A DNA stretch of 16,127 nt from Methylorubrum sp. B1-46. Its GTDB lineage: Bacteria; Pseudomonadota; Alphaproteobacteria; Rhizobiales; Beijerinckiaceae. Location of the stretch: assembly GCF_021117295.1 (NCBI RefSeq), contig NZ_CP088250.1, positions 1 to 16,127 on the forward strand, given 5' to 3'. The notes under the pieces are model-generated. The model was not told the DNA's origin. It saw nothing but the letters and a program-made list of their open reading frames with translations, and searched no databases. The position numbers were made by a program, and so were the translations under genes. Below are positions 1-16,127 of this stretch, one piece after another. How positions within the stretch are numbered: position 1 is the first letter of the stretch; every line of letters begins with the position of its first letter.

Positions 1-913
1 CGAGCCCGAACTTGGGCTGCGTCTCCTCGCGGCGCTCGATCTCCGCGACCCACCGCGCGGTCACGCCTTCGAGGCGCCGGGGGATCTTGATCTCACCCGA
101 CGACATCGAGCCGACGCGGGCCGCCTCACGGATCGGGCTGTATTGCACGAGGTTCCTGAGGAACTCGCTGCTGAACTCGGCGGGGGCGAGGTAGCCGCCC
201 GAGGTGTTGTCGGCCACGCGCAGGGCCTTGGTCTCCTCCGGGACCATCTTCTCGACACCGCGGCGCACGAAGGTCACGAAGGACTTGCGCTCGACCTTTG
301 CGGCGGCCTCCACGGGATCGCCCCCGGTCGGGCGGCCCAACTGCACTTCGATGCTGTCCAGGCGGCCGTTGATGCCCGTGATCTCGGTGGCGATGCCGTC
401 GAGGCGGGTCACGATGGCGGCGTTGTCCGGCGCGTCGGCGGCCGGTGCGGGAGAGTCAGACATTTCCTTGTGCCTTTCGCTTTTAACAGAAGTGATTGCT
501 GCACCGGGGTGGCAGGGCACTGCGACCACGCTGCATTCGAGAAGATCAATCAGGCTATAGGCTCGCCCGCCGCCAGCCCGAGATGTGTACTTGATCGGGT
601 TGAAACCAATCGAAACACCTTTGATCGCGCCCTCTTTGAGTAGGGCGAACACCTCTGCCGCCCGGCTCACCTTGTCGATCAGGAGCCGGCCCTTGAGGCG
701 CAGAGCATCGGCGGCAACCTCGACTGAGTGCCAGATCCCTATGGCTTCCTCATGCTGGTAGAGCATGGGGAGCGTCATGCCCGCAGCGGCCACGATGGCG
801 GCCCGGTCGATCGTGTCGTTCTCGCGGTCGGCCGACGCGAAGGGCCACGCAATCGCTTCGATCTCGCCCGCATCCGAGACGGACACGGCGGCCTTTGTGG
901 TTAGGAGCTTCAT
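1..913 (-). CDS. Prohead protease-major capsid protein fusion, N-terminal part (continues at 16127)
   Basis: The frame opens with ATG at 913-911, overlapping the portal stop as ATGA, and has no stop down to base 1. It continues in frame at base 16127 and ends at 15496, giving 514 residues in all. Residues 1-145 are a U35-type (HK97 gp4-like) prohead protease. The conserved YQHEEAIG carries the likely catalytic His54, GVSIGF carries the likely nucleophile Ser101, and the closing LLECSVVAVPCHPGA block is present. From about residue 151 (MSDSPAPAAD) the HK97 capsid begins, with a short helical delta-like scaffold segment (about 160-195) and the usual first residues of the mature shell (SGGYLAPAEF). 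These are normally two genes. In-frame Met151 (463-461) has an AAAGG/AAGGA purine run upstream, so a free capsid protein could also start there. Protease and capsid assignments are firm; whether the product is one chain or two is open. Confidence 0.9.
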   Translation of the reverse strand, partial: MKLLTTKAAVSVSDAGEIEAIAWPFASADRENDTIDRAAIVAAAGMTLPMLYQHEEAIGIWHSVEVAADALRLKGRLLIDKVSRAAEVFALLKEGAIKGVSIGFNPIKYTSRAGGGRAYSLIDLLECSVVAVPCHPGAAITSVKSERHKEMSDSPAPAADAPDNAAIVTRLDGIATEITGINGRLDSIEVQLGRPTGGDPVEAAAKVERKSFVTFVRRGVEKMVPEETKALRVADNTSGGYLAPAEFSSEFLRNLVQYSPIREAARVGSMSSGEIKIPRRLEGVTARWVAEIERREETQPKFGL

Positions 914-2208
914 TGCAGCGTCGGCTCCGGTGTGGGCGCGGGCTCTTGCGGCAGAGGGGTCGGCGGCAGGGGCGCGGGGGCCGGCGGGGGCGCATCGGCT
1001 CGCACGGTGTTGCCCGGCACCCGTAGGTGCGAGCCGCCCGGCGCGGGACCACGGCCCAAAATCTCGCGCGCTTCGTCGGGCGTCAGGAACGTCGTCGCCG
1101 CCTTGTAGAGCGCGTCATACAGTTGGAGCGTCGAGGGCTTGAGGAGTTCCTGATAGTCGAACTCAACGAAGTACTGCCCGCGCTCATCGTCACGGAACAG
1201 CACACGCTCGAAAGCATCGGCGAACTGTTCGCACCACGGCTTGATACACATGGAAACGAATTGGCGGCCTAGCTCTTCGCTATTATTGAAGGTCGCATTG
1301 GTCAGGTCGCCGATGATGATCGGCGGCACCCGGAAGGCGCGGGCTACATCGAGGATCGCGCGGCCCCACAACTCGACGTACTGCGCATCGACCGACGACA
1401 GGGCGAGTTGTTCGTAGCTGATCTCCCCAGGCAGCAACGCCGTCCCGCCGCTCTTGCCGCCACCATGGGCCGCGTTCCACGCCTGCACGATGTTCTTCAT
1501 GCGGGTGGGGCTGTTGTTGCCCTTGACGCTCAGGATCGAACCGGGGCGCGCCCCATTTCCGAACAGTCGCGAGCCGTGCGCCTGCAAGGCCATCAGGAAG
1601 CCGATGGCCTCGCGCGCCAGCGTCAGCGGTGCCGTGGTCTCGCCGTTCTCGGTGGGGATCGGCTCGACAAAGAGCACGTCCCGCCAGGAGCGCACACGGT
1701 CGCCGATGCGGAACGTCGGCTCGCCGGTCCCCGGATCGATCTCCCGCCCAAGCGAGCCCGGATGGATGCGGATGAGTTCGCGCGGCTCGCCGTTGACGCG
1801 CACCACGGCCGCGCCTCCGATGCCGTGCAGGTTCGCGTCCTTGGCAAGCTGATTGATGAGCCCGAAGCGTGAGGTCCACCCGTTGGGCCGGGCGATGATC
1901 CGATTGGCCGGATGGGCCGGGTCTTCCTGCCGGCGGCCGTTGGCGTCGAGGCGCATCACCCGCGGCTCAAGCGAAGCCAACGTCTCGCCGATCGCACGCA
2001 CCGCTGCGGCCACCACCGGCACGCGCATGGCCGAACCGGGACCAACCGCCTCGCCCGCCGCCGTGCCGACATGCAGCCCGTGGCTCATGATCTCCCACAG
2101 CTTGTCGTCGGGATCGGCAAGCGTGCCATCCGCCGCGACCGTGCCGGGCATAGCCTTGAGCTGGGCGACTTCCGAGCGGAGCGCGCGCAGTTGGGCCTTC
2201 CGCTTCAT
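910..2208 (-). CDS. Phage portal protein, HK97 family
   Basis: 432 residues, the normal size for HK97-type portals. The portal is the dodecameric ring at the capsid vertex through which DNA enters and to which neck proteins attach. Family signatures are seen in order: a variable N terminus, VPVVAAAVRAIGETLASL, a HPANRIIARPN segment, the clip/wing region with GIGGAAVVRVNGEPREL, the FGNGARPGSIL segment, and the crown-proximal FRVPPIIIGDLTNATFNNSE with a following helix. The last 30 or so residues are almost pure Pro/Ala/Glu and probably disordered. The ATG has a GAGGG ribosome site about 8 bases upstream and overlaps the stop of the preceding coiled-coil gene. The stop overlaps the protease start, both as ATGA, which puts it in one coupled head operon. 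Confidence 0.95.
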   Translation of the reverse strand: MKRKAQLRALRSEVAQLKAMPGTVAADGTLADPDDKLWEIMSHGLHVGTAAGEAVGPGSAMRVPVVAAAVRAIGETLASLEPRVMRLDANGRRQEDPAHPANRIIARPNGWTSRFGLINQLAKDANLHGIGGAAVVRVNGEPRELIRIHPGSLGREIDPGTGEPTFRIGDRVRSWRDVLFVEPIPTENGETTAPLTLAREAIGFLMALQAHGSRLFGNGARPGSILSVKGNNSPTRMKNIVQAWNAAHGGGKSGGTALLPGEISYEQLALSSVDAQYVELWGRAILDVARAFRVPPIIIGDLTNATFNNSEELGRQFVSMCIKPWCEQFADAFERVLFRDDERGQYFVEFDYQELLKPSTLQLYDALYKAATTFLTPDEAREILGRGPAPGGSHLRVPGNTVRADAPPPAPAPLPPTPLPQEPAPTPEPTLQ

Positions 2209-2387
2209 CCGAGTGCCCTCGCTTCCCTCATGCGCTCGCTGATGCGGTCGAGTTCGCGGCGCATGTCACGCTCGCGGCGTTCGGCCCGAGCGGCACGCAC
2301 GGCTTGCTCGTCGCGCTGGCGGCAGACGGCGGCGATGTCCCGCTGTAGCCGCTCGTTTTCTTTGGCGAGGCGGGCAACCTCATTCAT
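2205..2387 (-). CDS. Small coiled-coil protein upstream of portal
   Basis: 60 residues, almost entirely charged and helical (Glu, Arg, Lys, Ala), with heptad-like spacing from the N terminus (VARLAKENERLQRDIAAV) to the end. No enzyme motif. The ATG has a strong GGAGG site 8 bases upstream, and the gene overlaps both neighbours by ATGA, so it is very likely translated. Position directly before the portal suggests an assembly helper, scaffold-like or packaging-associated protein, but that is inference from place and shape only. I do not recognise a family. Heptad proteins of this size are easily matched by chance, so similarity searches should be read with care. Confidence 0.75.
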   Translation of the reverse strand: MNEVARLAKENERLQRDIAAVCRQRDEQAVRAARAERRERDMRRELDRISERMREARALG

Positions 2388-2584
2388 GGGAACGGCCTCC
2401 GCAAAGCCGCCATGGCGAGGCGAACGGTCGGAGCCGTCGTCACATGAGTGTCGGTGAGGTCGAAGGCGAGGAAGGACCGGCCCATCTGGAAAATGGTCCC
2501 GGTGCGCTCGCGGCCGTCGTAGGGCGACAACTCGCGGTCAGCGATTTCCCGCACGGCCTCGATCTCGATGCGGGCGGTGCTCAT
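2384..2584 (-). CDS. Small protein of unknown function
   Basis: 66 residues. I chose the ATG at 2584-2582 because it overlaps the upstream stop as ATGA and has AGAGG about 7 bases before it. The frame is open further upstream, but that extension would lie over the preceding gene and reads as low-complexity Arg/Pro. The sequence looks like a small alpha/beta fold: a helix (IEIEAVREIADREL), a turn containing SPYDGRERTG, then strands (TIFQMGRSFLAFDLTD). No catalytic motif is visible. The SPYDGR turn resembles SPFDGR in the gene just upstream. Coupled to both neighbours in the head operon; function unknown. Confidence 0.7.
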   Translation of the reverse strand: MSTARIEIEAVREIADRELSPYDGRERTGTIFQMGRSFLAFDLTDTHVTTAPTVRLAMAALRRPFP

Positions 2585-3186
2585 GCCTCCACCTCTGATT
2601 TTCGGAGGATGAGGTTGCCAAGGGCGAACAGCGTCTCGCTGGTGATGGTCGTGGAGTGGCGCCGGTCGGCACGCTGGCGCGACTCGGGGAGGTAGAAGCC
2701 CTTCGTCAGTCGGTCCGCGTCCACCTGCCATTCCGCGATCACGCGGCGGCGGTCGAGGCTGTCCACGAGGGCGAGGCTCGCGGTCGGGCAGGGCCGATGC
2801 ACGGTCAGTTCCAGCCGCAGGCCGGGGATCTCATCGCGGATGATCCAGGCGAACTCGATCAGCGCGGCGACGGTCTCGCCGAAGTTCGGCAGGCGGATCA
2901 CCAAGCCGAGGCACCGGGGGAGCGTCTTATCCTCCACGGCCGGGCGCCGCTTGAGGGTCGCGAGCACTTCCACGGCACGGGGCGAGGCGGTCGGTCCGTC
3001 CGTCCAAAGGCTCGCCAGCAACAGGGCCGCCACATCCTCCGCGGTGACGTGAGCCGCACCCCGCCCGCGATTGCCGACAGAGAACAAGCCAGCGTCCCGC
3101 AGATGCCGCGCAACCACCGTCAGGGCCGGGGGCGTCCGGCCGTCGAACGGCGACAAGGCGTCGGCAAGGGCGGGGAGAACGGCCAC
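2581..3186 (-). CDS. Hypothetical protein, first gene of the head operon
   Basis: 201 residues from GTG at 3186. The frame also allows TTG at 3237, just after an in-frame TGA, but that start has no ribosome site and would place two strong inverted repeats inside or against the coding region, so I prefer the GTG. The N-terminal 60 residues (ALADALSPFDGRTPPALTVVARHLRDAGLF, split by a turn, then VGNRGRGAAHVTAEDVAALLLAS) read as a small helical, possibly winged-helix-like domain. I recall similar N-terminal segments in hypothetical proteins of alphaproteobacterial prophages. The remainder is mixed alpha/beta with no recognised motif. It leads the operon and overlaps the next gene by ATGA. A DNA-binding or regulatory role is possible but not shown. 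Confidence 0.7.
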   Translation of the reverse strand: MAVLPALADALSPFDGRTPPALTVVARHLRDAGLFSVGNRGRGAAHVTAEDVAALLLASLWTDGPTASPRAVEVLATLKRRPAVEDKTLPRCLGLVIRLPNFGETVAALIEFAWIIRDEIPGLRLELTVHRPCPTASLALVDSLDRRRVIAEWQVDADRLTKGFYLPESRQRADRRHSTTITSETLFALGNLILRKSEVEA

Positions 3187-3200
3187 GATGCGGGCTCGCT

Positions 3201-3223
3201 TTCGATAGATGATGTCTATCGAA
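3201..3223. promoter_or_regulatory. Perfect 9-bp inverted repeat at head-operon start
   Basis: Arms TTCGATAGA and TCTATCGAA match perfectly around a 5-base spacer (TGATG). It lies just upstream of the GTG start chosen for the first head-operon gene. Arm length and spacing fit an operator for a dimeric repressor or activator. The binding protein is unknown. Confidence 0.6.
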
Positions 3224-3238
3224 CATCGGTCATTCAAT

Positions 3239-3444: not shown

Positions 3445-4215
3445 TTATTCGCCCTCAGACAGCCGCCGATAATCGATCCCGGCCCGCAACCAGGACGGCG
3501 TGTGACGGGCGCAATAAGCCTCGCCCTTATCGCGACAGCGGATCACCGCAGGCTTTCCGCACTCGGTGCAGATGAGCGGGCTCGCGGTCGTCGGCGGAAC
3601 GATCTCGCCTGTGTCCGGGTCGTGCGCCGGTAGTGCTACATCCTGATCCCGTAGAGCCAGAGGGGAAGGTGGGTGTGAAAGGTGTAAGGGGGGGTAAACA
3701 CCACCCTCCGACAGGGGCGTTTGCCCCCCTCTCACGCTCGATTTACGGGGCTGTTTACCCCCCTCCCCTTTCGCCACCACACGCGCGAGACGTTCCATAT
3801 CGCGGCGTTTCCGATCCGCTTCCCGGCGCTTTTCCCGAGGCCCTTTCAATTCCTCCCGCCGATCCAGAATGGGATTGGCCTGCTTCTCGCTCACGACATA
3901 GATGGTCGCGCGGCGGCCGTGCCCCGGCTCAAAAGTGAGCCATCCCGCAGCCGCGAGCGCCTTGCGGTGGCTGTTGATCGTCTTCCGATCCCTGTCCTTG
4001 AAGCCGGGGATCTCATCGGCAATCACGTCGTCGGGCAGATAGGTGCCACAGGTGCCCGCAGTCCTATCCCACTTGTCCTCGTCGAGGGCTTCCACGATGC
4101 GCAGCAGCAGGCGCACGCTCGCGGGCTTCAAGTTCTCATCCAAACCGGCGGCGTTGAGGATGTCGAGCTTCCAACTGGTGAAGCTCTCGCTGCTCCGATC
4201 CCGCTTCCGTGCCAC
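3445..4215 (-). CDS. Winged-helix protein, putative phage/plasmid replication initiator
   Basis: 256 residues from GTG at 4215, with GAGAGG just upstream. Three parts are seen. Residues 10-110 are a winged helix-turn-helix domain (SFTSWKLDILNAAGLD, then a recognition-helix region around DDVIADEIPGFKDRDRKTINSHRKAL and a wing around TFEPGHGRRATIYVV). Next comes a very basic helical linker (about 115-160). The C terminus has a zinc-ribbon-like CTECGKP ... YCARH pattern. Proteins with this SFTSWKLD-type N terminus recur in alphaproteobacterial phages and small plasmids as presumed initiators (recalled, not searched). The gene carries three copies of a GGGGGG(T/C)AAAC motif within its linker-coding part, as in lambda O, where the origin iterons lie inside the initiator gene. 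It is the last gene of the early block. A transcriptional regulator is the alternative. Confidence 0.65.
   Translation of the reverse strand: MARKRDRSSESFTSWKLDILNAAGLDENLKPASVRLLLRIVEALDEDKWDRTAGTCGTYLPDDVIADEIPGFKDRDRKTINSHRKALAAAGWLTFEPGHGRRATIYVVSEKQANPILDRREELKGPREKRREADRKRRDMERLARVVAKGEGGKQPRKSSVRGGQTPLSEGGVYPPLHLSHPPSPLALRDQDVALPAHDPDTGEIVPPTTASPLICTECGKPAVIRCRDKGEAYCARHTPSWLRAGIDYRRLSEGE
3689..3763. repeat. Iteron-like repeats inside the initiator gene, possible origin
   Basis: Three copies of one motif: GGGGGGTAAACACCACCC on the plus strand at 3689-3706, and on the minus strand GGGGGGCAAACGCCCC (3729-3714) and GGGGGGTAAACAGCCCC (3763-3747). The core GGGGGG(T/C)AAAC(A/G) is kept in all, and each copy is roughly palindromic (G-run to C-run). 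The two same-strand copies are 34 bp apart and the third is inverted. Such spacing fits initiator binding sites. No strongly AT-rich unwinding segment lies alongside, which weakens the origin reading. Confidence 0.5.
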
Positions 4216-4239
4216 GTCGCCAACCTCTCGAACAGGAAC

Positions 4240-4273: not shown

Positions 4274-4444
4274 TCAGCCCCGGATCAGCCGGCGCAGGTA
4301 GTAGAGCGGCAAGCCGATCAGGGCGGGCAGTAGGAGGCGCCAGGGAAACCCCGACGTAATACGTCCAGGTTTCTCGGGCTGTCTGAGCGGCACGGCGAAG
4401 TCAGGGACGGCCGCGAAGGGCGAGGCGGTAGGGGGATGCCTCAT
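4274..4444 (-). CDS. 56-residue single-span membrane protein
   Basis: ATG at 4444-4442 overlaps the stop of the upstream gene as ATGA, and the frame ends with TGA at 4276-4274. The N-terminal half is Pro/Ala-rich and probably disordered (MRHPPTASPFAAVPDF). Residues 35-51 (WRLLLPALIGLPLYYL) form one hydrophobic helix, followed by RRLIRG, a positive tail suggesting a cytoplasmic C terminus. No signal peptidase site is visible. Support comes from the overlap and the clean membrane helix, since the gene is short. Possible roles include a holin-like or membrane-anchoring accessory protein; nothing in the sequence decides. It is co-transcribed with the initiator-like gene. Confidence 0.6.
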   Translation of the reverse strand: MRHPPTASPFAAVPDFAVPLRQPEKPGRITSGFPWRLLLPALIGLPLYYLRRLIRG

Positions 4445-4692
4445 CGCGGACTAAGCCCCTCCGGGCCGCTCACAACCTCATCCAGCCGCTTGAGCCGGGC
4501 CAGGAGGTCTCCGATCCCGAATAGGATCAACCGCCACTCCCATTCTGCCACGAGGTAGTGGCCCGGATAGGGGGCCCGGCCGTCGAGCGGGGCGGCGACG
4601 CTCTCCGAGGCCCACTGGTTCAAGAGGGTCGCCGCACTGATGGCGTCCTCAAGCGGGCAGGCCAGATCGGCTTCGATGTCGAGGCGCTTCAT
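4441..4692 (-). CDS. Small helical protein of unknown function
   Basis: 83 residues from ATG at 4692, overlapping the previous stop by ATGA. The sequence is an N-terminal helix pair (DLACPLEDAISAATLLNQWA), a turn with APLDGRAPYPGHY, then an amphipathic, Trp-rich helix (AEWEWRLILFGIGDLLARL) and a charged tail. The layout, with two helices flanking a GHY turn, resembles the gene just upstream, which may mean a shared ancestor. No family recognised. It belongs to the early block driven from the divergent promoter at 5.0 kb. Confidence 0.65.
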   Translation of the reverse strand: MKRLDIEADLACPLEDAISAATLLNQWASESVAAPLDGRAPYPGHYLVAEWEWRLILFGIGDLLARLKRLDEVVSGPEGLSPR

Positions 4693-4931
4693 AGGCCGCG
4701 CCCCCGTGCCAGCCGCAGGAACCGGAGGTCGTCGCTCATGTGCCCGGCAAGGGTGTCAACGGCGTTGCCGATCACCCCGAAGTAATGGCCGTCGATTGGC
4801 TCGTCTGAGTCGGCGAGGGCGCGAACGATGAACCCCCAATCGGCAAGCTCTTGAGCCTTCCGGTCGAGGCTTTCGAGCCGCAGGTCTATGTCCTGCCGGT
4901 CAGGGGATCGTGTAGTGTGGTCGGTAGCCAT
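4689..4931 (-). CDS. Small protein of unknown function, first gene of the early block
   Basis: 80 residues. The ATG at 4931-4929 has TGGAGAG about 7 bases upstream and lies about 64 bases past the predicted start of transcription. An upstream extension to 5030 would cross that promoter and is rejected. Predicted helices IDLRLESLDRKAQELADWGF and GNAVDTLAGHMSDDLRFLRLA flank a DEPIDGHYFG turn. No known motif. As the first gene opposite the XRE regulator it occupies the place of an early lytic or copy-control gene in phage switches, but that is position only. Confidence 0.7.
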   Translation of the reverse strand: MATDHTTRSPDRQDIDLRLESLDRKAQELADWGFIVRALADSDEPIDGHYFGVIGNAVDTLAGHMSDDLRFLRLARGRGL

Positions 4932-5001
4932 GTGACGCTCTCCAGAGGCGTTGCTGGTCAGGCCGGGCGGGGAGGGCTCAAGCTCCCTGTCCGGTCGCCC
5001 T

Positions 5002-5030
5002 ATTAATGATCCCCTTACCATTGACGTCAA
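5002..5030 (-). promoter_or_regulatory. Promoter of the early block
   Basis: Reading the minus strand: TTGACG at 5030-5025, a 17-base spacer, then ATTAAT at 5007-5002. Both boxes are close to the sigma-70 consensus, and the segment is AT-rich against its surroundings. It would drive the 80-, 83- and 56-residue genes and the initiator-like gene, and perhaps the head operon if the hairpin at 3343-3370 is passed. Confidence 0.6.
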
Positions 5031-5067: not shown

Positions 5068-5319
5068 ATGCATATCACGAGCGAACAGGTCCGCGCGGCG
5101 CGGGCGCTCCTTCGATGGGAGCAAAGCACGCTGGCGGAACGGTCCGGGATCTCCCTGCCATCCATTAAGCGGCTCGAGACGACGCGTGGTCCACTGGCGG
5201 CTCACGGTCGGACAATGGCCGCGATCCAGGGGGCGCTAGAGGCCGCCGGCATTCTGTTTCTGGCCGAAGGTCACGTCTCGGACGGCGGGCCGGGCGTCAG
5301 GCTCAAGGCGACGGCCTAA
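5068..5319 (+). CDS. XRE/Cro-CI family transcriptional regulator
   Basis: 83 residues. The ATG is chosen for its CGGAGG site 7 bases upstream; the upstream extension would include the promoter. Residues 7-37 hold the helix-turn-helix (VRAARALLRWEQ, then TLAERSGISLPSIKRLE). The second half (IQGALEAAGILFLAEG, then GGPGVRL) is the usual ending of small XRE regulators common in Rhizobiales and Methylobacterium. The protein is expected to bind DNA as a dimer. It is transcribed away from the early block across a shared palindrome, the arrangement of a repressor controlling itself and an early operon. Its last 84 bases overlap the convergent DUF3102 gene. Confidence 0.9.
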   Translation: MHITSEQVRAARALLRWEQSTLAERSGISLPSIKRLETTRGPLAAHGRTMAAIQGALEAAGILFLAEGHVSDGGPGVRLKATA

Positions 5320-5610
5320 GCCATTGATCTCAATGGGTGCAAAATTGCGCCGGTCGATGATCTCGTCCTTCACCTCGTCCGGCGTAGACGGGGCGGCGAG
5401 CGCGTAGAGGACGGTGGGGGGCAAATCCGAAACGATTTCGGATTTGAAACGTTCGGCCACGCGCATGAAGTTAAGCGCCGTTCGGTCGCTCATCCCGAAC
5501 TCATCTTTGATCCACGGCAGGAAGTTGCCGTGACCGAGCAGTTCCTTCACCCGGATAAGGTCGCGGCCGATCTCAAAAAGAAACCGGCTGGATATCCTCG
5601 CGATACCCAA
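5236..5610 (-). CDS. DUF3102 domain protein
   Basis: 124 residues if the TTG at 5610 is the start. The core, from GRDLIRVKELLGHGNFLPWI to SDRTALNFMRVAERFKSEIV, is a good match to the DUF3102 pattern (lysine-rich helix, LGHG.F..W, then MS.RTA..FM.VA). The domain is known from phages and plasmids and is presumed to bind DNA; no reaction is established. No ATG or GTG lies in frame before the core, and there is no clear ribosome site, so translation may be coupled to the ribbon-helix-helix gene ending 29 bases upstream. The C-terminal 27 residues lie antisense to the XRE gene and fall outside the domain. Grouping with parA suggests a partition or copy-control accessory. Confidence 0.75.
   Translation of the reverse strand: MGIARISSRFLFEIGRDLIRVKELLGHGNFLPWIKDEFGMSDRTALNFMRVAERFKSEIVSDLPPTVLYALAAPSTPDEVKDEIIDRRNFAPIEINGLGRRLEPDARPAVRDVTFGQKQNAGGL
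5590..5605 (-). repeat. Second copy of the parA-upstream site (GAGGATATCC)
   Basis: On the minus strand this reads TATCGCGAGGATATCC, matching TACCGGGAGGATATCC at 6612-6627 in 14 of 16 positions. The shared core GAGGATATCC includes the palindrome GGATATCC. The two copies flank the parA and ribbon-helix-helix genes, in opposite orientation. Candidate binding site for the partition DNA-binding protein. Confidence 0.45.
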
Positions 5611-5639: not shown

Positions 5640-5912
5640 CTATCCGCGATCCCGCTCCAGCTTTTCGGCGATGGCCTGCAAGATCCAGGTGTTGCGCGGG
5701 AGGCGGACGACGGTGGCCTTGCGGGCGGCTTCCAACCGCTCGAACAGGTCGGAGTCGGCGGGGAACTTGAGCGGATGTTGCGGCCCCTTCCCGGCTTTCT
5801 CTTGCTCTGGCGCGGGCGTGTCGGCGGCCACCGATCCGCCCTTGCTGATGAATGCCTCCACCGGGTCGGCGGGCTTTGCCGCCGGGCGGGCGGGCTTGGC
5901 GCTCAAAGCCAT
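5640..5912 (-). CDS. Ribbon-helix-helix protein, putative ParA partner
   Basis: 90 residues, starting one base after the parA stop. The N-terminal half is disordered (Ala/Pro/Lys-rich), as in ParA partners that use a basic tail to stimulate the ATPase. The C-terminal half fits the ribbon-helix-helix fold: a short strand (HPLKFP), helix (SDLFERLEAARKA), turn, and helix (LPRNTWILQAIAEKLERD). Such dimers bind centromere repeats and often repress their own operon, as in type Ib partition systems. The identity of the centromere is not proven; the GGATATCC sites flanking the operon are the best candidates. A plain transcriptional repressor is the alternative. Confidence 0.7.
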   Translation of the reverse strand: MALSAKPARPAAKPADPVEAFISKGGSVAADTPAPEQEKAGKGPQHPLKFPADSDLFERLEAARKATVVRLPRNTWILQAIAEKLERDRG

Positions 5913-9089: not shown

Positions 9090-10867
9090 AGGCGGATCTC
9101 GATCGCGCCGCCGGCCCCGGCAACGCATCCGGTCGAGGCTTTCCCGAGCAAGCCGCCGAACACCCCTCCCTCGCCGCTGCCGCTCTTGCCGAACAGCACA
9201 TCAGCGAGGCTATCCATCGCCCTGTCACTGAGACGTGCGGCGAGCCGATCCACCGCATTTGTGATGAGATCGATCGCGCTGGCGCCGTTGCGCGCATCGG
9301 ATGCCATGCCGCGGAACACGTCACCGCCAACGGAGCGGATGAAGTTCTGCGCCTCCATGCTCTCTTCGATCTTGGTCTTGTACTCGTCGGTTGCGAGGGA
9401 CAGGGCTTTCACCTTGTCGATCTGCTCTTGCGTCAGGGTGATGCCCTGCTGCCGGGCCGTGGCCTCCAGCTTCGCGACGTTGACCGCTGCCAGCCGTTCG
9501 CCGCCGGCCATGCCGAGCGCCGCCGTCTCGGCCTTGAGCGCCTCCGTGGAGCGCTCGATACCGTTGATGTAGGTCTCGACGGCGTTGAAGGACTCGGACG
9601 CTTCCTTCGCCCCGCCGCCTTTGGGCTTGGCGCTCACGATGGGCTTGGTCTGGTCGCGGCGAAAGCCTTCCGTCATCCGGCGGGAGGCTTCCTGTGCCTG
9701 GTCGATCAGCGTCCGGTTGCCGAGATTGCCCCGCAGCTTGTCGAGCGCCGCGTCGCGTTCTGCATCGCCCGTCGAGGTCGCTCGCGTGGTCCGGCCGATG
9801 TCCTTCTTCAGGCCCGAGGCGGGCGCGTCCTCCGGTCGGAAATAGTCCCGTCCGTAGATCGCCGGTTCGGTCGCCTCCATCTGCTCGCGGATCTTCCGAC
9901 CCTCCTGCAGGATACCCACGGCGATGCGGGCGCCGGATGCCATGAGCTCTTTCCAGGAGATGGCATCCTCGCGAAGTCCGATGCCCGCCTGCGCCAGTTC
10001 GTGCCGGAACTCGGTCGCGGCCCGGTCCATGGTCGCCTGCGCATCCTCAAGCCGACGCTGTAGCTCCTGCGCGCGGGTGATCTCCTCCGGCTTCAACAGC
10101 ACGAGGTCGGGATTCTTCACGTCGTCGATCATCCGCCGGAACTGGCTCAGTTCGACGGCGCCGCTGCGGATGCGCTCCACAAGCTCCGGCGGGAACAGCT
10201 TGCCGGCGAGGTCGAGGGCGGCGAGGTCGCGGCCCTTGGCCTGCAACTCGGCCATGATGTCGAGCGCGGCCTTGAACTGCGCCTCGGTGCCAATCGCGCT
10301 GTCGAACCGGCCAACCTGCGCGGCCGTGACGTTGCCAGCGGCCATCTGCTCACGGAGCCGGGCGCCGAACGCGCTATCGTTGCGGGCGTTCTCCCCTCCC
10401 TCGCCCTGCCGCACCGCGAACGCCGCGCGGGCGGTCTCCAACGACTTCACGAGGGCGTCGGCATCCACCTTCAGGGCGCGGGCCTGCGCGCGGTAGGTCT
10501 GAAGGAACGTGCTCGACACGCCCAGGCGGGAAGCGTCGTTGCCGATCTTCGCCATGAGGTCGAGTTGCACGCCGGCCTCGCGCGCCGCGGCTCCGAGCGC
10601 GTCCACCGCGAGCTTTGCCGCCTGGAACGCGGCCAGCGCGCCGACAAGGCCAAGGGCAACCGGGGCCAGCTTCGACGCCACCTCGCGCCCGAAGTTCGCC
10701 CCGACATTCCGGGCCGTCTGCGCCATGACGCGATCGATGCCGGTGGCGGTCGCCGCCCATTTCGCCCCGATCTGCGCGGCCGTCTGCGCGCCGATGTTGA
10801 GGGCCGCCTTCATGCCCTGGTCAAAGGCGCGCGTGTCGGCGCCTACCGTGATCGCCATTCCTGCCAT
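9086..10867 (-). CDS. Short tape-measure-like tail protein
   Basis: 593 residues. ATG at 10867 has AGGAG 7 bases upstream and overlaps the previous stop. The start (MAITVGADTRAFDQGMKAAL) is the usual opening of tape-measure proteins in alphaproteobacterial phages. It is followed by a hydrophobic stretch near residues 67-95 (LAPVALGLVGALAAFQAAKL) and then long helical, coiled-coil-rich sequence with many Ala, Gln and Glu. The C terminus is Gly-rich. A tape measure sets tail length and is ejected with DNA. At this length it would fit only a short tail by the usual rule of about 1.5 angstrom per residue. No tube or baseplate genes follow, so it may act in a hybrid or rudimentary tail. Confidence 0.7.
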   Translation of the reverse strand: MAGMAITVGADTRAFDQGMKAALNIGAQTAAQIGAKWAATATGIDRVMAQTARNVGANFGREVASKLAPVALGLVGALAAFQAAKLAVDALGAAAREAGVQLDLMAKIGNDASRLGVSSTFLQTYRAQARALKVDADALVKSLETARAAFAVRQGEGGENARNDSAFGARLREQMAAGNVTAAQVGRFDSAIGTEAQFKAALDIMAELQAKGRDLAALDLAGKLFPPELVERIRSGAVELSQFRRMIDDVKNPDLVLLKPEEITRAQELQRRLEDAQATMDRAATEFRHELAQAGIGLREDAISWKELMASGARIAVGILQEGRKIREQMEATEPAIYGRDYFRPEDAPASGLKKDIGRTTRATSTGDAERDAALDKLRGNLGNRTLIDQAQEASRRMTEGFRRDQTKPIVSAKPKGGGAKEASESFNAVETYINGIERSTEALKAETAALGMAGGERLAAVNVAKLEATARQQGITLTQEQIDKVKALSLATDEYKTKIEESMEAQNFIRSVGGDVFRGMASDARNGASAIDLITNAVDRLAARLSDRAMDSLADVLFGKSGSGEGGVFGGLLGKASTGCVAGAGGAIEIRL

Positions 10868-11265
10868 CAGGATTCTCCTGTCGCGTCCTCAGCCGCCTGG
10901 ATCACCTCCGGGCCGTGTCGCTCTTTCGCCGCCTCCACCTCCGGCCAGAAGAACGGTTCGGCCGGCTCATGGATGGTGCCGTATTCCTCGATCAGCGCCG
11001 TGTCGTAGACCGTACCCGCCTTCGTCGGCCGGGCGGTCTCCGGTGTCCCGCCGGCTCGCACCGTCACCGTGCCGTCCTCGTTCTCTTCCGCCCGGATGCT
11101 GTCGCGCAGGGCACCCGAGACGACGGACACGCGGGCGCGCATCCCCTCCACCATCTCCCCGGCGATGCTCCGCGACTTCGCCGCGGTGGCGATGCGCACG
11201 GCTTTCGAGATGTCCGAAAGCTCGCGGGCCAAGGTCGTGAGGCCGGATACGCCCGCGAAGATCAT
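10867..11265 (-). CDS. HK97 gp10-like neck/tail component
   Basis: 132 residues. It matches the HK97-gp10 pattern: an N-terminal helix (LTTLARELSDI), a basic helix ending in ARVSVVSGALRDSI, a strand hairpin with TVTVRAGG, and the typical ALIEEYGTIHEPAEPFFWPEVE ending (positions about 90-112), whose EYG(T) and PFF..P residues are the family mark. These proteins join the head-closure ring to the tail terminator. Overlaps both neighbours by a few bases. Confidence 0.8.
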   Translation of the reverse strand: MIFAGVSGLTTLARELSDISKAVRIATAAKSRSIAGEMVEGMRARVSVVSGALRDSIRAEENEDGTVTVRAGGTPETARPTKAGTVYDTALIEEYGTIHEPAEPFFWPEVEAAKERHGPEVIQAAEDATGES

Positions 11266-11729
11266 GCGGCGGCCTCCCCCGATCCGGCCGGCGCGGCGTC
11301 CTCATCGAACACGGCCACAGGCGCGGGCAGGCCGTAGCAGGCGGCGGCCAGGATCATCGCGGCGAGCGGCCCGTAGAGCGCCAGAGGGCGTTGCGACAGC
11401 ACGGCGTCGATCGCGGACAGGTCCACCCCGCGAGGCTGGCGCGGCGTGGTCGGCGCCGGTTCGGTGCGGCCGTCGATCCGGGCGCGGATGGATGACAGCG
11501 ACAGCGGCGCATAGCTCGACAGGCGGGAGGCCGGGGCCGGATGCGAGACGGCCAGGATGGTGCGCACGTCCGCCATGGTCCAAGTGCCGGCCTGGAACCG
11601 CTGCCAGCAAGCCGAGACGGAGCCGACGACGCTCTCAAGGCGATCAACCGTATCTCTGTCCCTATAGAGTTCGAAGCGCACGCGGCGCCCGCCGAACTTG
11701 GCATCGACGTGGTTGACGGTCTTCGTCAT
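11262..11729 (-). CDS. GTA-gp10-like tail assembly protein
   Basis: 155 residues. The first 65 (FGGRRVRFELYRDRDTVDRLE, then SACWQRFQAGTWTMADVRTIL) resemble the gene transfer agent gp10 family: a small beta hairpin copying the gene target, then two helices with a residue pattern ending in D(V)R.(I)L. That family is linked to tail tube assembly in Rhodobacter GTA and related prophages. The rest is Pro/Ala-rich with a hydrophobic helix (LALYGPLAAMILAAACYGL). ATGA overlap with the terminase stop. Assignment is by recalled pattern only. Confidence 0.5.
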   Translation of the reverse strand: MTKTVNHVDAKFGGRRVRFELYRDRDTVDRLESVVGSVSACWQRFQAGTWTMADVRTILAVSHPAPASRLSSYAPLSLSSIRARIDGRTEPAPTTPRQPRGVDLSAIDAVLSQRPLALYGPLAAMILAAACYGLPAPVAVFDEDAAPAGSGEAAA

Positions 11730-13333
11730 CGCAGCACCAACAGTTGAGGGTCAAAGTCTTCGGATGCGTAATAGTCGGCTTCCGGCGCGGTCGCGATCAG
11801 TCCCACGGCCATGCCGCAAGCAACGGCAAGGTCAATCGCCGCGCCCGAACGCTTCTTGCTCAGAATGAACAGGCTGTTCTCATGCGTCGTCGGGACGGCG
11901 TTGAGGATCGCGTGGCGCAGGACCGGCGAGCCGCCATGTCGGAATTGGCGCGAAAGCATGGCGCGTTGCAGTTCGACGTACATCGGGGCGAGGTTGGCGA
12001 ACGTCTGCGCGCTCTCCACCACGGGGAGGTCGTCCGCCGCCATCCGCGCCATGATCCGCCCGGCGAACTTCGGATCGAAGCCAACCGTCTCGACGGCGTA
12101 GGTCTCGCATAGCTCGCGCACCTTCGCCTCGATCACGTCTTCCGGGATGATGTCCCCCGGCGTGACCGTCAGGGCGCCGCTCTCGCGCCAGCCGGTCCAA
12201 TCGAAGCCGGGGGAGGAGGCGGACCGCTTGCGGAACGCCGTCTCGGGCAGGAAGGCGAAGGGCAACACCGTGTAGCTGCCCTCCTCATGCCGGAAGGCGA
12301 TGACGATGCCGGTCATGTCCATGGTCTTGGACATATCCACCCCCACGGCGGCAGGCAGGCCCGCCAACGCGTCGAGGTCGATCGGCGCAGACATGGCCGG
12401 ATCATCGTAGACGGTCGGCTCGATCCAGCCGGCGGCGGCGCCGTCCGTCCAGATGTTGAGGTGCACCTGTCGGAAGCCTGCCGCGAGCGCGGGAATGGAC
12501 TGCGCAAGCCGCGCCTCGTTGCGGAGCCCGATCAGGTCGGGGAATCCCTCCGCGAGGCCGGGATTGACCCGGTGCCACAAGGCTTCATCCAGCCAATCCT
12601 CTTTCGGGTCGGCCGCGAACAGCACGGGCAGAAACGTCGGATCAACCCGCCGGCCCTCGTGCACGTCGAGGGCGTACTTGAACAGTTCCCAGCACACGCC
12701 TTCGGCCATCTGCCCGGCCGTCGTCGTGATGACGGTGAGCGAGCCCGAGACCTTCGCCGCGCCCGAAGTCAGCGCGTTCCACAGGTCGAAGCCCGGCCAG
12801 ACATGCAGCTCATCCACCGCGAGGTAGCAGGGCGTAGCACCATGGGCGGCGTCCGCGTCCGCCGAAATCGCGCGGTAGACCGAACCGGATTTGGCGTGCT
12901 CGATCCGCTTGAGCGTGTCACGCGGGCGGTAGCGGCCTTCAAGGTTCGGGTCTTGCGCGAGCATGTCCCGCGCCTCATCGAACGCGATGCGGGCCTGTGC
13001 CGTGTCGCTCGCCGCTGAGATGGCGGTGCCGCGCGGTCGTTGGGCCGGGCCGATCGTGTGAGCGAGGGCCAGGACGGCCGTGAGCGTCGTCTTACGGGCG
13101 CCTCGCGGCAGTAGCAGGAACACCGTCTGCACCTGGCGCTCGCCTCGCTCATTCGAGGGGCCGTAGATCCGCTCCACGATGCGGCGTTGCCAGCGATGCG
13201 GCAGGGGCCGGCGATCCGTGCCCGTCGCGGCCGGATGCTTCAACAGGTCGGCGAAGGCCAGCACACGCTTCGCCCGCCCGGCCGGGTCCGGGATGGGCGT
13301 GTCGTCAAATGCCCAGATCGGAGTAAGCGTCAT
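11726..13333 (-). CDS. terL: Terminase large subunit, HK97-like
   Basis: 535 residues from the ATG at 13333-13331, chosen because GGAGG lies 8 bases before it; an ATG six bases earlier is too close to that site. The ATPase domain shows a P-loop at about 76-83 (PRGARKTT), where the usual Gly before Lys is Arg, and a Walker B box LAVDE with Asp174-Glu175. The nuclease domain follows: VGVDMSKTMDMTGI (first acidic metal ligand), a VGFDPKFAG segment, and SKKRSGAAIDLAVACGMAVG with the last Asp. The enzyme pumps DNA into the prohead through the portal and cuts it. It overlaps the small subunit by 29 bases. Confidence 0.95.
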   Translation of the reverse strand: MTLTPIWAFDDTPIPDPAGRAKRVLAFADLLKHPAATGTDRRPLPHRWQRRIVERIYGPSNERGERQVQTVFLLLPRGARKTTLTAVLALAHTIGPAQRPRGTAISAASDTAQARIAFDEARDMLAQDPNLEGRYRPRDTLKRIEHAKSGSVYRAISADADAAHGATPCYLAVDELHVWPGFDLWNALTSGAAKVSGSLTVITTTAGQMAEGVCWELFKYALDVHEGRRVDPTFLPVLFAADPKEDWLDEALWHRVNPGLAEGFPDLIGLRNEARLAQSIPALAAGFRQVHLNIWTDGAAAGWIEPTVYDDPAMSAPIDLDALAGLPAAVGVDMSKTMDMTGIVIAFRHEEGSYTVLPFAFLPETAFRKRSASSPGFDWTGWRESGALTVTPGDIIPEDVIEAKVRELCETYAVETVGFDPKFAGRIMARMAADDLPVVESAQTFANLAPMYVELQRAMLSRQFRHGGSPVLRHAILNAVPTTHENSLFILSKKRSGAAIDLAVACGMAVGLIATAPEADYYASEDFDPQLLVLR

Positions 13334-13694
13334 GCTCATCCCCTCCGGTGGGCTTGGCGGGTGCGCCGCTACCGATGATCCCAAGCCGCTTGGCGAGTTG
13401 GAGGGCGTTCTGCGATGCCTTGTTCCGAGCGCCGAATAGCGGGTGGACGCGCTCGATGCCGTTGGCGCCCTTAATCATCAGCCCGCCGCGCTTCGACAGG
13501 CTCTTGTCGCACTCGGCGATCAAGGCCATCGCGTTGCAGTAGGCGACCAAGAGGGGTTCGCGCTCGGCGGGGAGGCCGCCGCGATCCCGCAGGACCGGCG
13601 CAACGCGGTCCCACTCGGCGCGCGCCGCCTTCGTCAGGCCCTTTGGCACCGCTGGCGCATCGGCCTTCGTCACCAAGCGAAGCACGTCAGCCAT
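13305..13694 (-). CDS. terS: Terminase small subunit, P27 family
   Basis: 129 residues, fitting the P27/HK97-type small terminase in length and pattern: P.GLT..AR.EWDRVAPVL near the start, a LLVAYCNAMALIAECD helix, the basic strand-turn GGLMIKGANGIERVHPLF, then KASQNALQLAKRLGI. It recognises the packaging site and hands DNA to the large subunit. The last 25 residues are Gly/Pro-rich. It overlaps the head closure gene by 8 bases, so it lies in the middle of the operon, not at its head as in HK97. Confidence 0.9.
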   Translation of the reverse strand: MADVLRLVTKADAPAVPKGLTKAARAEWDRVAPVLRDRGGLPAEREPLLVAYCNAMALIAECDKSLSKRGGLMIKGANGIERVHPLFGARNKASQNALQLAKRLGIIGSGAPAKPTGGDEHDAYSDLGI

Positions 13695-14022
13695 AGGACG
13701 GCCCTTGATCTGCGGTGCACTGCACTTCGAGGTAGCGGCGGCGGCCGGCGAGTTCGCGGAAGGCTTCGATCCGCCACGTCAGGCCCTCGCACCGGAGTTG
13801 ATGCGAGGTCGAAAGGTCCGCCCGGTACGGTATCCAGAACAGGGCACGGGTCTCGGCGACGATGCCGCCGGCCTTCAGGAACTCGCCGCCGCCGCTGTCC
13901 TTGCGCACGCCCCACACGCGCGCGATCTCCCCGAACGTCTCGATCAGTTCGTTGGTGTCTGGATCGCGGGTGTAGGTCGGTCCCTCGATCAGGATGCGCC
14001 GGTCGCGCGTGCCGGCCCTCAT
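13687..14022 (-). CDS. Head closure (head-tail adaptor) protein
   Basis: 111 residues of the SPP1 gp16/HK97 gp9 type: MRAGTRDRRILIEGP at the start, DTNELIETFGEIARVWGVRK, and a C-terminal beta barrel region with FWIPYRADLSTSHQLRCEGLTW split by short turns and ending in LEVQCTA. The family forms the ring under the connector that closes the filled head and offers the tail docking face. Overlaps the connector gene by ATGA. Confidence 0.85.
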   Translation of the reverse strand: MRAGTRDRRILIEGPTYTRDPDTNELIETFGEIARVWGVRKDSGGGEFLKAGGIVAETRALFWIPYRADLSTSHQLRCEGLTWRIEAFRELAGRRRYLEVQCTADQGPSYG

Positions 14023-14606
14023 CCGAAGTAGGCCCGCTGGTAGGGCATCACGAGGTCAAGCCCGGCGAAGGGCACGGCCGTGAAGGTCGTGTTGGCGGTG
14101 ATGCTCTCGCGGTTCTCGTAGAGCGTCGCGACGTGCATCAGGATCGCGGTGCGGATCGGCTCCGGCACCGGGTCATAGCCGGCGGTGAACTCCACCGTGA
14201 CCGTCGCCACGTCGAACGGCAGGACCGGGCACATGCCGGCGGGCAGAACGCGGCCGGGCTCGCTGCCGCCGGGCATGACGCGGAAGTCGGGACCGGCGAG
14301 CGCCACCGTCGTCCCGCTGCGGAGCGTGCACGTCACCGTCTCGACCGATCGAAGCGGCGGGAGCGGGAGCACGATGCCGGCGCGGGGGAAACCGTCGTGC
14401 GAGTAGCGCCACCGCTGCACGCCGATCGCGCGATCCAGATACCCGGCCTCGCCGTCGAGGTACGCCGTCGCGGTCTCGATCAACGACGTGATGAGCAGGT
14501 CGTCGCTGATGACGGCCGAGTCCCCATCAGTGACGCGCAGGAACGCCTTCGCCTCCTCAAGCGAGACGACGGGCGCGGGCGCCTCGATCCGTTCCAGAGT
14601 TTCCAT
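14019..14606 (-). CDS. Head-tail connector, phiE125 gp8/HK97 gp6-like
   Basis: 195 residues. The N terminus VVSLEEAKAFLRVTDGDSAV with a following DDLLITSLIETATAYLDGE helix is the signature of gp6-like connectors. The middle LPLPPLRSVETVTC and GYDPVPEPIRTAILMHVATLYENRES complete the phiE125 gp8 pattern. It sits on the portal as the first neck ring. The ATG follows a GGAAAG purine run. The 97 bases before it, up to the HNH gene end, hold no gene or clear signal. Confidence 0.85.
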   Translation of the reverse strand: METLERIEAPAPVVSLEEAKAFLRVTDGDSAVISDDLLITSLIETATAYLDGEAGYLDRAIGVQRWRYSHDGFPRAGIVLPLPPLRSVETVTCTLRSGTTVALAGPDFRVMPGGSEPGRVLPAGMCPVLPFDVATVTVEFTAGYDPVPEPIRTAILMHVATLYENRESITANTTFTAVPFAGLDLVMPYQRAYFG

Positions 14607-14703
14607 TTCCGCTTTCCCGGTGCGAAAAATCGGATTGTGTTCGACGCGAGGGAGGAGCGAGGTCGTCAGTCCATTTGCTCTGACCTTTCGACCCCCTCCC
14701 CAC

Positions 14704-15036
14704 CTATCGCTTTGGATTGCCGAAGCCGCCTTCTGTGCTTGCGGCCTTTCGGCTATTGCAGGCGCGTGTCATCGGTTGCCAGTATCGGCGGTCGAACATG
14801 AGCGCGCCGTCTCGCCCGTGCTTGTGGTCCACCACCTCTGCGGGCCTGCCGCACCCACAGGCGCACAGTCGGTTCTCAGGACGGGCGAGCCATTCCTTGG
14901 CTTGGCGCCTCCACTCGGCTGTGTAGCCACGGGCCTGAGCGGTAGGGCGTTGGGCGAGGCGCCGACGCTGGCACGGGCAGAGCGCGCCGGGATCAACCCG
15001 GTGTCCGCACGCGCAACGTCGAGGCGCCCGCTTCAT
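14704..15036 (-). CDS. HNH endonuclease
   Basis: 110 residues. Core motif: CACGCGRPAEVVDHKHG (zinc cysteines and first catalytic His), then WQPMTRACNSRKAAS (central Asn and the stretch where the last His usually sits). An extra N-terminal CxCG...CPC cluster may bind zinc. HNH proteins next to terminase genes, such as HK97 gp74, stimulate terminase cutting at the packaging site, and that is the likely role here. The final canonical His is replaced by Asn (CNSRK), as in many phage members. Two bases separate it from the upstream gene. Confidence 0.85.
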   Translation of the reverse strand: MKRAPRRCACGHRVDPGALCPCQRRRLAQRPTAQARGYTAEWRRQAKEWLARPENRLCACGCGRPAEVVDHKHGRDGALMFDRRYWQPMTRACNSRKAASTEGGFGNPKR

Positions 15037-15038
15037 GG

Positions 15039-15482
15039 TCAGGCCGCGACGGGCTGTTCGCGCGGGTTGCCGAGGATGGCGAGCGCGGACATGGGCGTGC
15101 CGGTGCCGTGCGTGCCGATGAAGTCCGGCCGGAGCCGCACGTACCGCCGGTCGCCGATCGTGCCATCCACGTAGGCGAACTTGTGCACGGTCGGATCGGG
15201 ATGCGCGCTACGCTGAGACAGGACGATGCCGCTGCCGTCCGGCACGCCGCCGATGACGTTGGTGGGGCCGACAGCCTCCCAGGTCACGCCGTCGTCGGAG
15301 TGCTCCAGGTAGAGGTCGAGGCGGTTGGCCGAGGTGAAGGTGATGCCGCCCGCGCCCAACTGGAACACGAAGCTTACGGCATTAAAGCCGGATCGATCGA
15401 TGGTGATCGGCGCCGGGTCGGCGGACAGCACGGCGGGCAGAACGGCCGAGCGGGCCGCGAATGTGGTGACGTGATCGCGCAT
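15039..15482 (-). CDS. Capsid-associated protein of unknown function, possible decoration protein
   Basis: 147 residues, almost all beta strand (FNAVSFVFQLGAGGITFTS, LDLYLEHSDDGVTWEAV, KFAYVDGTIGDRRYVRLRPD). I recall a family with this layout, including the closing IGDRRYVRL-type strand, placed right after the capsid gene in many alphaproteobacterial prophages and left unnamed. Its place and beta-sandwich look suggest a head decoration or stabilising protein; that is inference. GGAGG lies 8 bases before the ATG, and 13 bases separate it from the capsid stop. Confidence 0.7.
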   Translation of the reverse strand: MRDHVTTFAARSAVLPAVLSADPAPITIDRSGFNAVSFVFQLGAGGITFTSANRLDLYLEHSDDGVTWEAVGPTNVIGGVPDGSGIVLSQRSAHPDPTVHKFAYVDGTIGDRRYVRLRPDFIGTHGTGTPMSALAILGNPREQPVAA

Positions 15483-15495
15483 GGTGGCGCCTCCC

Positions 15496-16127
15496 TTAGT
15501 TCACGGACACGCGCAGCTTGCGCAGGGCTTCGGGGCGGACGACGGCGCCGGCGACGCGGCGACGGGCTGTGAACTTCGTCTGGCCGTAGTCGGACAGCGT
15601 GTAGGGGTCGCGCAGGACGCTGAAGCCCACGCGGTCGAAGATGCGGTAAGCCGCCGACAGGTCGCCGTAGACGATGGGCGTGGAGTTCGCGGCCACGTCG
15701 GGCAGGTCGATCGCTTCGACCACGGGGCGGCCGAGAAGCGTCGGCGGCTGGCCTTCGGCAAGGCTCTCCTGCCAGAGGAAGCGGCCGGTCTGGTCCTTCA
15801 TCAGCCGGATCGCGGCGATGGTCGTCCCGTTGAGCAGCCATGAGCCGGCGTTCCGGTAGATCGGCGGCAGGCTGTAGAGCAGCTTGATAAGGGCTTCCGG
15901 CTGCAACACCGTCGCGTGGCCGTTCGGCACGATCGGCACCGCCTCGTTGGTCAGGATGCCTTCGGGCTGCTTCACCCCGGAGCCCGAGGCGAAGGCCAAG
16001 CCTTCAAGTCGGCCAAACTCCTCAGAAAAGGACTCAGACAGTTCGCCTTCGATGTCGTAGGCCGAGTCCTCCAACAACGTGTTGGACACCGGCACCCACG
16101 CGGACATCTCGTGCGCGACGATCTCCG
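15496..16127 (-). CDS. Protease-major capsid fusion, C-terminal part (joins at base 1)
   Basis: This is the rest of the fused gene that starts at 913. Across the junction the codon formed by bases 1, 16127 and 16126 is GCG (Ala), and the joined protein reads QPKFGL-AEIVAHEMSAWVPVS, which is exactly the course of an HK97-fold capsid after its spine helix. Seen here are the WVPVSNTLLEDSA strand, the long helical ELSESFSEEFGRLEGLAF, the SGSGVKQPEGIL loop, the A-domain (WLLNGTTIAAIRLMKD), and the closing strands with YDLSAAYRIFDR-like and VVRPEALRKLRV elements. The capsid part (from Met151) is 364 residues. The ATG at 16107 inside this stretch is not a gene start. Confidence 0.93.
   Translation of the reverse strand, partial: EIVAHEMSAWVPVSNTLLEDSAYDIEGELSESFSEEFGRLEGLAFASGSGVKQPEGILTNEAVPIVPNGHATVLQPEALIKLLYSLPPIYRNAGSWLLNGTTIAAIRLMKDQTGRFLWQESLAEGQPPTLLGRPVVEAIDLPDVAANSTPIVYGDLSAAYRIFDRVGFSVLRDPYTLSDYGQTKFTARRRVAGAVVRPEALRKLRVSVN

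Follow-up and report, generated by a model that had tools for sequence, protein, structure and literature searches.

The window considered here is contig C4 (NZ_CP088250.1) of Methylorubrum sp. B1-46 at its full length of exactly 16,127 bp, one part of a 4-contig, 5.50-Mb genome rated 100% complete. It encodes plasmid maintenance functions together with HK97-type head and packaging genes and a short set of tail genes. The element is probably a phage satellite that forms its own capsids and persists as a plasmid. It would then be the episomal counterpart of related capsid-forming islands, equipped with a tail-length module for chimeric tails. The open reading frame (ORF) of the capsid protein lies on the minus strand and crosses the contig ends in frame (913 to 1, then 16127 to 15496), giving a stop-free product of 514 aa. 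Across the junction, this product aligns without gaps with the capsid protein of G008, an island in the same genus. The contig is therefore a closed circle.

Profile searches against Pfam and PHROGs covered 20 proteins of the element, and 5 small ORFs were searched against PHROGs alone. The features are as follows.

2..913, minus strand: prohead protease domain and N-terminal part of the major capsid protein; the ORF continues over the circle junction
910..2208, minus strand: portal (PF04860, 7.2e-70)
2205..2731, minus strand: orf60 and orf115, between orf201 and portal; kept with the orf201 and orf256 relatives in a chromosomal element of G762 (49%, 44%)
2581..3186, minus strand: orf201, a satellite protein with relatives including those in L002 (37%) and G762 (about 38-41%)
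3445..4215, minus strand: orf256, weakly replication-O-like (phrog_391, 0.006; 49% in G762)
4274..5030, minus strand: three small ORFs that match no family (scan of the third partial)
5068..5319, plus strand: XRE-type regulator (weak Pfam HTH match)
5236..5610, minus strand: DUF3102 protein (PF11300, 6e-9)
5640..5912, minus strand: small ParB-type partner of ParA, named by position (no family match below 0.03; 76% in L002, beside the ParA of L002)
5913..6590, minus strand: ParA (phrog_164, 5e-41; 84% in L002)
7058..7855, plus strand: plasmid replication initiator, Rep (phrog_15967, 6e-71)
8002..8394, minus strand: DUF3168/tail-terminator-like protein (phrog_347, 5e-6; PF11367, 5.8e-6; 56% in G763, in the same order)
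8391..9089, minus strand: orf231, which is orf245 with a re-set start (conserved columns; profile matches not significant)
9086..10867, minus strand: tape measure, 593 aa (phrog_8892, 5e-9; 37 relatives at 1e-20)
10867..11265, minus strand: HK97-gp10/neck-like protein (phrog_5, 4e-8); it precedes the tape measure likewise in prophages L126, L127 and L130
11262..11729, minus strand: gta10, a weak match to the gp10-like tail assembly chaperone of gene transfer agents (GTA) (PF11836, 7e-4, under the curated cut-off)
11726..13384, minus strand: TerL (phrog_9, 1e-115; Pfam nuclease, 2e-31)
13305..13694, minus strand: TerS, Terminase_4 (PF05119, 2e-14)
13687..14022, minus strand: head closure (PF05521, 3e-17)
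14019..14606, minus strand: head-tail adaptor (phrog_442, 1.7e-26)
14704..15036, minus strand: HNH endonuclease (phrog_144, 1.2e-10)
15039..15482, minus strand: orf147, a probable capsid decoration protein (phrog_5707, 2.6e-9, a family of unknown function)
15496..16127, minus strand: HK97 major capsid protein, C-terminal part (PF05065, 6.7e-60, with the C-terminal part scanned)

The head and packaging genes run in the order portal, protease-capsid, orf147, HNH, adaptor, closure, TerS and TerL, and all of the recognised ORFs among them are open. TerL is followed by the GTA-gp10-like gene, the gp10/neck-like gene, the tape measure, orf231 and the terminator-like DUF3168 gene. The remaining genes encode the XRE and DUF3102 proteins, ParA and its small partner, Rep, the replication-O-like protein, orf201 and small ORFs. 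Towards its N-terminus, the capsid ORF can be aligned with the proteases of the plasmids pMPOP02 and pTT14-8, in which the protease has a gene of its own. Rep has relatives on 85 plasmid records, including 46 of Methylobacterium and 5 of Methylorubrum, and the XRE regulator is 35-49% identical to XRE genes of ten related loci. An earlier note on this DNA had described a plasmid with ParA, replication genes, an XRE switch and a full HK97 head set, which circularity and the family matches confirm. The genes of its fragmentary tail set (GTA-gp10-like, gp10-like, tape measure and DUF3168) were also matched by profile, the GTA-gp10-like gene weakly.

The same note had stated that a tail tube, baseplate, lysis genes and an integrase are missing. 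In the profile searches of these 25 products, nothing was recognised as an integrase, as a lysis, baseplate or fibre protein, or as a major tail protein. As a positive control, PHROGs recognises the major tail proteins of two prophages of the same genus (7e-19 and 5e-31) and of pMPOP02 (3e-29), and these three control tubes gave no tblastn match to the element at 0.01. Two families labelled 'tail tube', PF11836 and phrog_8985, touch the gta10 protein weakly (7e-4 and 0.059). In prophage L126, a phrog_8985 protein (1e-30) stands beside a separate major tail protein, so gta10 is read as a chaperone-type protein rather than a tube. Counterparts of gta10 occupy the same place in prophages L127 and L130 and in the plasmid G745:C93.

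Alternatively, the element might be a very small phage that needs no helper, with genes for tube, tip and lysis that have diverged beyond recognition. The several small ORFs without a family match would fit this explanation, as would orf231, orf201 and orf256, which are unassigned or weakly assigned. No unassigned protein exceeds 256 aa, however, and the tubes of three other elements are recognised by PHROGs and lack a match here. In addition, orf147 resembles a decoration protein. This explanation is considered very improbable.

For orf147, an alignment of 21 sequences gave a capsid decoration protein (E 0.012) and a cementing protein (E 0.036) as its best two PDB profile matches, both weak, followed by three further, unrelated matches at E 0.49-0.76. 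It is 63% identical to its counterpart in island G008, in which no tube was found. A tube had been considered, as orf147 shares its 147 aa and its place with the annotated tube of pMPOP02, yet the two show no similarity at 1e-3, and the three tube queries do not match it at 0.01. These results suggest that orf147 is probably a capsid decoration protein and part of the head. A tube or baseplate gene among the unassigned proteins, recognised by structure prediction, was the first of two findings that the note had said would overturn its proposal; neither gene emerged by profile search.

The kinship of the element is seen best in its TerL. A match at 1e-30 occurs in 37 of 298 genomes sampled from the family (its own included), and the closest other TerLs are 60% identical in G264 (the same as the named Microvirga subterranea contig), 57% in G008 on a chromosome of the same genus, and 51% in G015. 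A scan of named genomes gave 14 loci, including Methylobacterium sp. J-068 and M. soli. An alignment search of IMG/VR gave 15 loci, seven of them on contigs of 14.8-18.1 kb, and the five whole IMG/VR contigs of that size have no end repeat; single-protein scans of IMG/VR gave 0 loci for TerL and 2 for Rep. In a TerL tree of 40 rows, the element falls in a 15-row group with support of 100/100, in which three rows are one identical sequence. Apart from the element, the group comprises two chromosomes, with the rest of its 14 rows coming from draft or metagenome contigs and from IMG/VR; no known plasmid is among them.

The chromosomal relatives behave as islands. In all 9 whole genomes counted apart from the host's, the phage-gene block has an integrase no more than about 9 kb away, and 5 of 7 virus records carry one. 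Both counts are among the matches listed, with the host genome and 4 named genomes outside them. Ends were sought in two islands, and each of the two proved to be flanked by an exact repeat within a tRNA gene. G008, which belongs to the TerL group of the element, is bounded by a 51-bp repeat in tRNA-Arg at 17,973 bp, and G188, of another TerL group, by a 45-bp repeat in tRNA-Met at 17,618 bp. In G146 and G087, the genes past TerL look host-like by eye. The view of the element as an episomal capsid-forming satellite is thus well supported by its relatives. The host chromosome itself holds a second head-bearing island, L047 (G000:C1, about 4770-4780 kb), with integrase, portal, protease, TerL and HNH genes, and a cluster labelled GTA-like by eye, L048 (G000:C1, 1615-1635 kb), with a portal and a 1302-aa tail protein.

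Sixteen tail-protein queries, some of them labelled by eye, were applied at 1e-3. Of the 14 relatives in the TerL group of the element, 10 gave no match. L041 and L071 match the start of the central fibre J (L041 by PHROGs at 5e-10), and L042 and L073 carry tape measures confirmed by PHROGs, in ORFs of 936 and 753 aa. A fibre J fragment of L055 was detected by PHROGs (4e-7) and missed by the 16 queries. In the islands L041 (13759-14235), L055 (11604-12080) and L071 (about 11697-12182), about 160 aa resemble the start of fibre J and stand beside an orf231 relative. Three tube queries run at 0.01 on 51 loci found no match in the TerL group of the element, nor in G188, G745:C93, L002, L003, the Paracoccus plasmid or pTT14-8. 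They did match pMPOP02, the draft loci L058, L061, L063 and L065, and the prophages L094, L126-L128 and L130. A tape measure without a tube-query match is found in G015, L073, G188 and the Paracoccus plasmid.

The tail module is shared in parts with islands and prophages. G188 combines a tape measure with orf245-like, gp10-like and closure genes. At its contig start, G763 carries tape measure, orf245-like and DUF3168 genes in the order of the element, followed by an integrase (phrog_1, 1e-40). Prophages L127 and L130 of the same genus have gta10, gp10-like and tape-measure genes in that order, and L126 has at least the last two. In L126 and L127, a tube lies upstream of the gp10-like/tape-measure block. 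The block of L127 is followed by minor tail and J genes, as judged by likeness to PHROGs-confirmed genes of L094.

Genes of the orf231 type often adjoin a tape measure or stand behind TerL. In its relatives in L041, L056, L071, L042 and L095, an initial M is mostly followed by T, and D18, K34 and G49 are invariant. The spacing of T2, D18 and K34 presumably recalls the active site of the proteasome and HslV, and the catalytic-looking T, D and K line up with the HslV-type protein of the host. A proteasome-like hydrolase was rejected: hhalign gave E 0.1 at 0.6% probability, PF00227 had no match in the element even at E 10, and Pfam and PDB searches returned nothing useful.

The size of the element appears to be conserved. 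A search of 5.8 billion proteins gave six matches to orf201, counting the protein itself. Three of them, at 87, 84 and 72% identity, have longest contigs of 16,532, 16,755 and 16,183 bp, and tape-measure relatives at 42, 50 and 39% have contigs of the same three sizes. Hits of equal size presumably represent one contig each, in which case close relatives of similar size diverge far more in the tape measure than in orf201. Contig sizes and identities thus point to a conserved element size with swapping of the tape measure. Across 76% of its length, the tape measure matches one in a Methylorubrum populi contig of 6.26 Mb at 97% identity, and the ends differ. A match to orf201 occurs in 8 of 397 genomes of the order and 9 of 111 of the genus (own genome included in each). 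No near copy was found in these genomes, since the best match in the genus outside the own genome is 41% (G762). An orf201 alignment search of IMG/VR returned L002 only. ParA was rejected as a marker of the class because it is too common, with at least 3720 matches at 1e-50 among 8000 candidates scored.

Several observations weigh against a working satellite. AlpA was not found in the element. The tube appears to be absent as far as sequence searches can tell. The other two orf201 relatives, at 72 and 53%, have longest contigs of 387,429 and 5,816 bp, so that not all are 16-kb elements. By coordinates, the tape measure is about 100 C-terminal residues shorter than that of the G175 prophage and could for this reason be non-functional, although 4 of the 37 relatives (P0007, P0008, P0024 and nearly P0012) have the same short end. 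A resident helper with a tape measure of this type was not seen, as the host has no second related one at 1e-5.

The short tape measure, together with the occurrence of the gta10/gp10-like/tape-measure block in fuller prophages of the same genus, would also fit an element in decay, left over from a larger phage-plasmid after loss of the distal tail and lysis genes. Such a remnant is unlikely. The recognised head and packaging ORFs are all open, contigs of 16.2-16.8 kb are given for three of the five orf201 relatives besides the element, and the two related islands with attachment-site (att) boundaries span 17.6-18.0 kb. Against 1401 matching phage records, TerL reaches about 33% in the best-ranked and less than 60% in all, versus 57-60% in islands. 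A 35-45 kb phage-plasmid parent, the second finding named by the note as decisive, was not encountered. A phage-plasmid carries a complete virion and lysis set on a plasmid, and no tube, tip, fibre or lysis gene was recognised here.

Satellite plasmids of this general form have been described. The cf-PISP, a 15.8-kb circular satellite-plasmid of Vibrio with head and terminase genes, was named in 2026 (PMC13230959). According to the available text of that source, it resembles the element in being a circular plasmid that carries parA and repA alongside head, HNH and terminase genes and a Stl-like regulator, and in lacking an integrase. The element is likewise an extrachromosomal circle of about 16 kb with parA and rep, and it encodes capsid, protease, portal, adaptor, closure, HNH and terminase proteins. 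The excerpted text reports a distinct tyrosine recombinase in the cf-PISP and does not contain the term 'tape measure' (PMC13230959). The element differs in being alphaproteobacterial and in carrying a tape-measure module. A cf-PISP has no tail genes, whereas tape-measure, terminator-, gp10- and chaperone-like genes are present here. The authors' own search, as given in that text, found no genus but Vibrio and allowed that open-ocean metagenomes may hold similar elements (PMC13230959).

The position of the terminases last in the head genes is a mark of the cf-PICI family of capsid-forming islands. This order is shared by the element and NZ_CP069874 (L119), a circular Klebsiella record of 15,995 bp that also has capsid, protease, portal, connector, closure, HNH, P27-type TerS and TerL genes. 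It differs from the element in having an integrase and AlpA and no annotated ParA, and its TerL is only distantly related. From its gene list, NZ_CP069874 is read here as a cf-PICI; it is filed as a plasmid and is perhaps an excised island. The cf-PICI definition is given in PMC10690885, with which the available text of PMC11389934 and PMC12409344 agrees; a term search of the accessible part of PMC11364771 gave nothing on cf-PICIs. Where a cf-PICI has an integrase and chromosomal att sites, the element forms its own circle, and no integrase was recognised in the 20 proteins scanned.

Satellite-encoded tape measures are also on record. PLE satellites of Vibrio cholerae encode a tape measure and a chaperone and build chimeric tails, and PLE without tmp shows a decrease in transduction of 96 to about 99.9% (excerpted text of PMC12987554). 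A figure legend in the same source lists some cf-PICIs with a putative tmp. The element shares the trait of a satellite-encoded tape measure, as its phrog_8892 match indicates; PLE, unlike the element, is chromosomal and takes its capsid proteins from the phage (PMC12987554). The earlier note had proposed that the tail parts adapt the head to the tail of a helper. The genes resemble a simple adaptor less than they do a tape-measure/chaperone module for chimeric tails, comparable to that of PLE. The 'satellite phage-plasmids' of Glacial G8 are likewise small circles (<16 kb); the available text states that they lack phage structural genes, and one is tabulated with a terminase and a tail gene (PMC4490671).

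No report of such an element outside Vibrio was found in the open-access literature searched. The note had suggested that the element may represent an extrachromosomal class of capsid-forming satellite, and this class was already in print as the cf-PISP of Vibrio. The cf-PISPs and the satellite tape measures of PLE and some cf-PICIs are already known as of 2026. As far as these searches show, such a plasmid in Alphaproteobacteria and the combination of cf-PISP and tape-measure features are new.

Related plasmids carry the same functions in other combinations. L002 (IMGVR_UViG_3300017664_000011) is a circular element of 10.7 kb with a 114-bp end repeat, close in size to a published 11-kb PISP. 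Its ParA, ParB-type protein, Rep and orf201 are 84, 76, 55 and 37% identical to those of the element, and portal, protease and capsid, with no terminase, were recognised. L003 (IMGVR_UViG_3300034069_001502) is circular at 10.6 kb with a 141-bp end repeat and the Rep type of the element (54%); an HK97 capsid and a tape measure are its only recognised virion genes. In the same genus, the circular plasmid G745:C93 (L129, L131), a 19.8-kb contig with a 141-bp end repeat, has Rep, ParA and an XRE protein 70% identical to that of the element over 80 aa, along with gta10, gp10-like, tape-measure and orf245-like genes and no recognised head gene.

Three named plasmids, pMPOP02 of Methylorubrum populi, a 17.5-kb plasmid of Paracoccus marcusii and pTT14-8 of Roseomonas mucosa, are small circles with HK97 head and terminase genes like the element. 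pMPOP02 shares its Rep family (52%) and differs in having a tube and a further tail gene by annotation. The Paracoccus plasmid resembles the element in its chaperone-like and tape-measure genes and the lack of a tube match, and pTT14-8 differs in giving no match to the 16 tail queries. Neither the Paracoccus nor the Roseomonas plasmid has a Rep or ParA match to the element. In the TerL tree, these three plasmids lie outside the group of the element in three separate places, so the plasmid state seems to have arisen several times. The P. marcusii plasmid (L005, NZ_CP157016) has an unannotated 842-aa tape measure that runs over the record start (15413-17941). Proteins with an HLH/HVH stretch, which we take to recall HUH replication or transfer enzymes, are encoded on the plasmids L004 (8020-9102) and L005 (14279-15187). 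The head-tail adaptor gene of pTT14-8 (L006, CP099479) seems to be interrupted by an IS21 element. The host genome carries, on a contig other than C4, an insertion sequence 97% identical to one of Methylobacterium sp. DM1.

That related plasmids hold single modules, such as capsid and tape measure in L003 or the tape-measure block without a head in G745:C93, would also agree with a plasmid that has captured a head module, is not mobilised and merely interferes with incoming phages through its phage proteins. The element keeps a full packaging set of TerS, TerL, HNH and portal, and this speaks against such a role because interference alone would not need it. This account is regarded as decidedly unlikely. 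It can tentatively be hypothesized, with rather less than even confidence, that the plasmids of the Methylobacterium group form a modular satellite pool in which the genes for head building and those for tail length can be exchanged independently, tape measures are swapped to fit local helpers and helper particles are reprogrammed piecewise. The forms of such a pool would be a head with a tape-measure block (the element), portal, protease and capsid (L002), capsid and tape measure (L003) and a tape-measure block (G745:C93).

With the element taken as a capsid-forming satellite plasmid, two modes of life can be proposed. In the inherited mode, Rep would replicate the circle, and ParA with its small partner would partition it, replacing the integrase of the island relatives. 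In the mobile mode, infection by a helper siphophage, or its induction, would relieve the XRE switch. The satellite would then build small HK97 heads from its portal, protease-capsid, decoration, adaptor and closure proteins, and its own HNH, TerS and TerL may fill them with the 16-kb satellite DNA. The gta10/gp10-like/tape-measure/DUF3168 set would direct a chimeric tail, with the satellite determining tail length and the helper supplying tube, tip and fibres and lysing the cell.

The satellite-plasmid way of life thus seems to be present in a bacterial class distant from Vibrio. Plasmid TerLs occupy at least three places separate from that of the element, and att-bounded islands are among the relatives; therefore, the step from chromosomal satellite to plasmid becomes directly comparable. 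The findings also suggest that satellite-encoded tape measures recur among capsid-forming satellites, and Methylobacterium would be a tractable system for tests of satellite plasmids.

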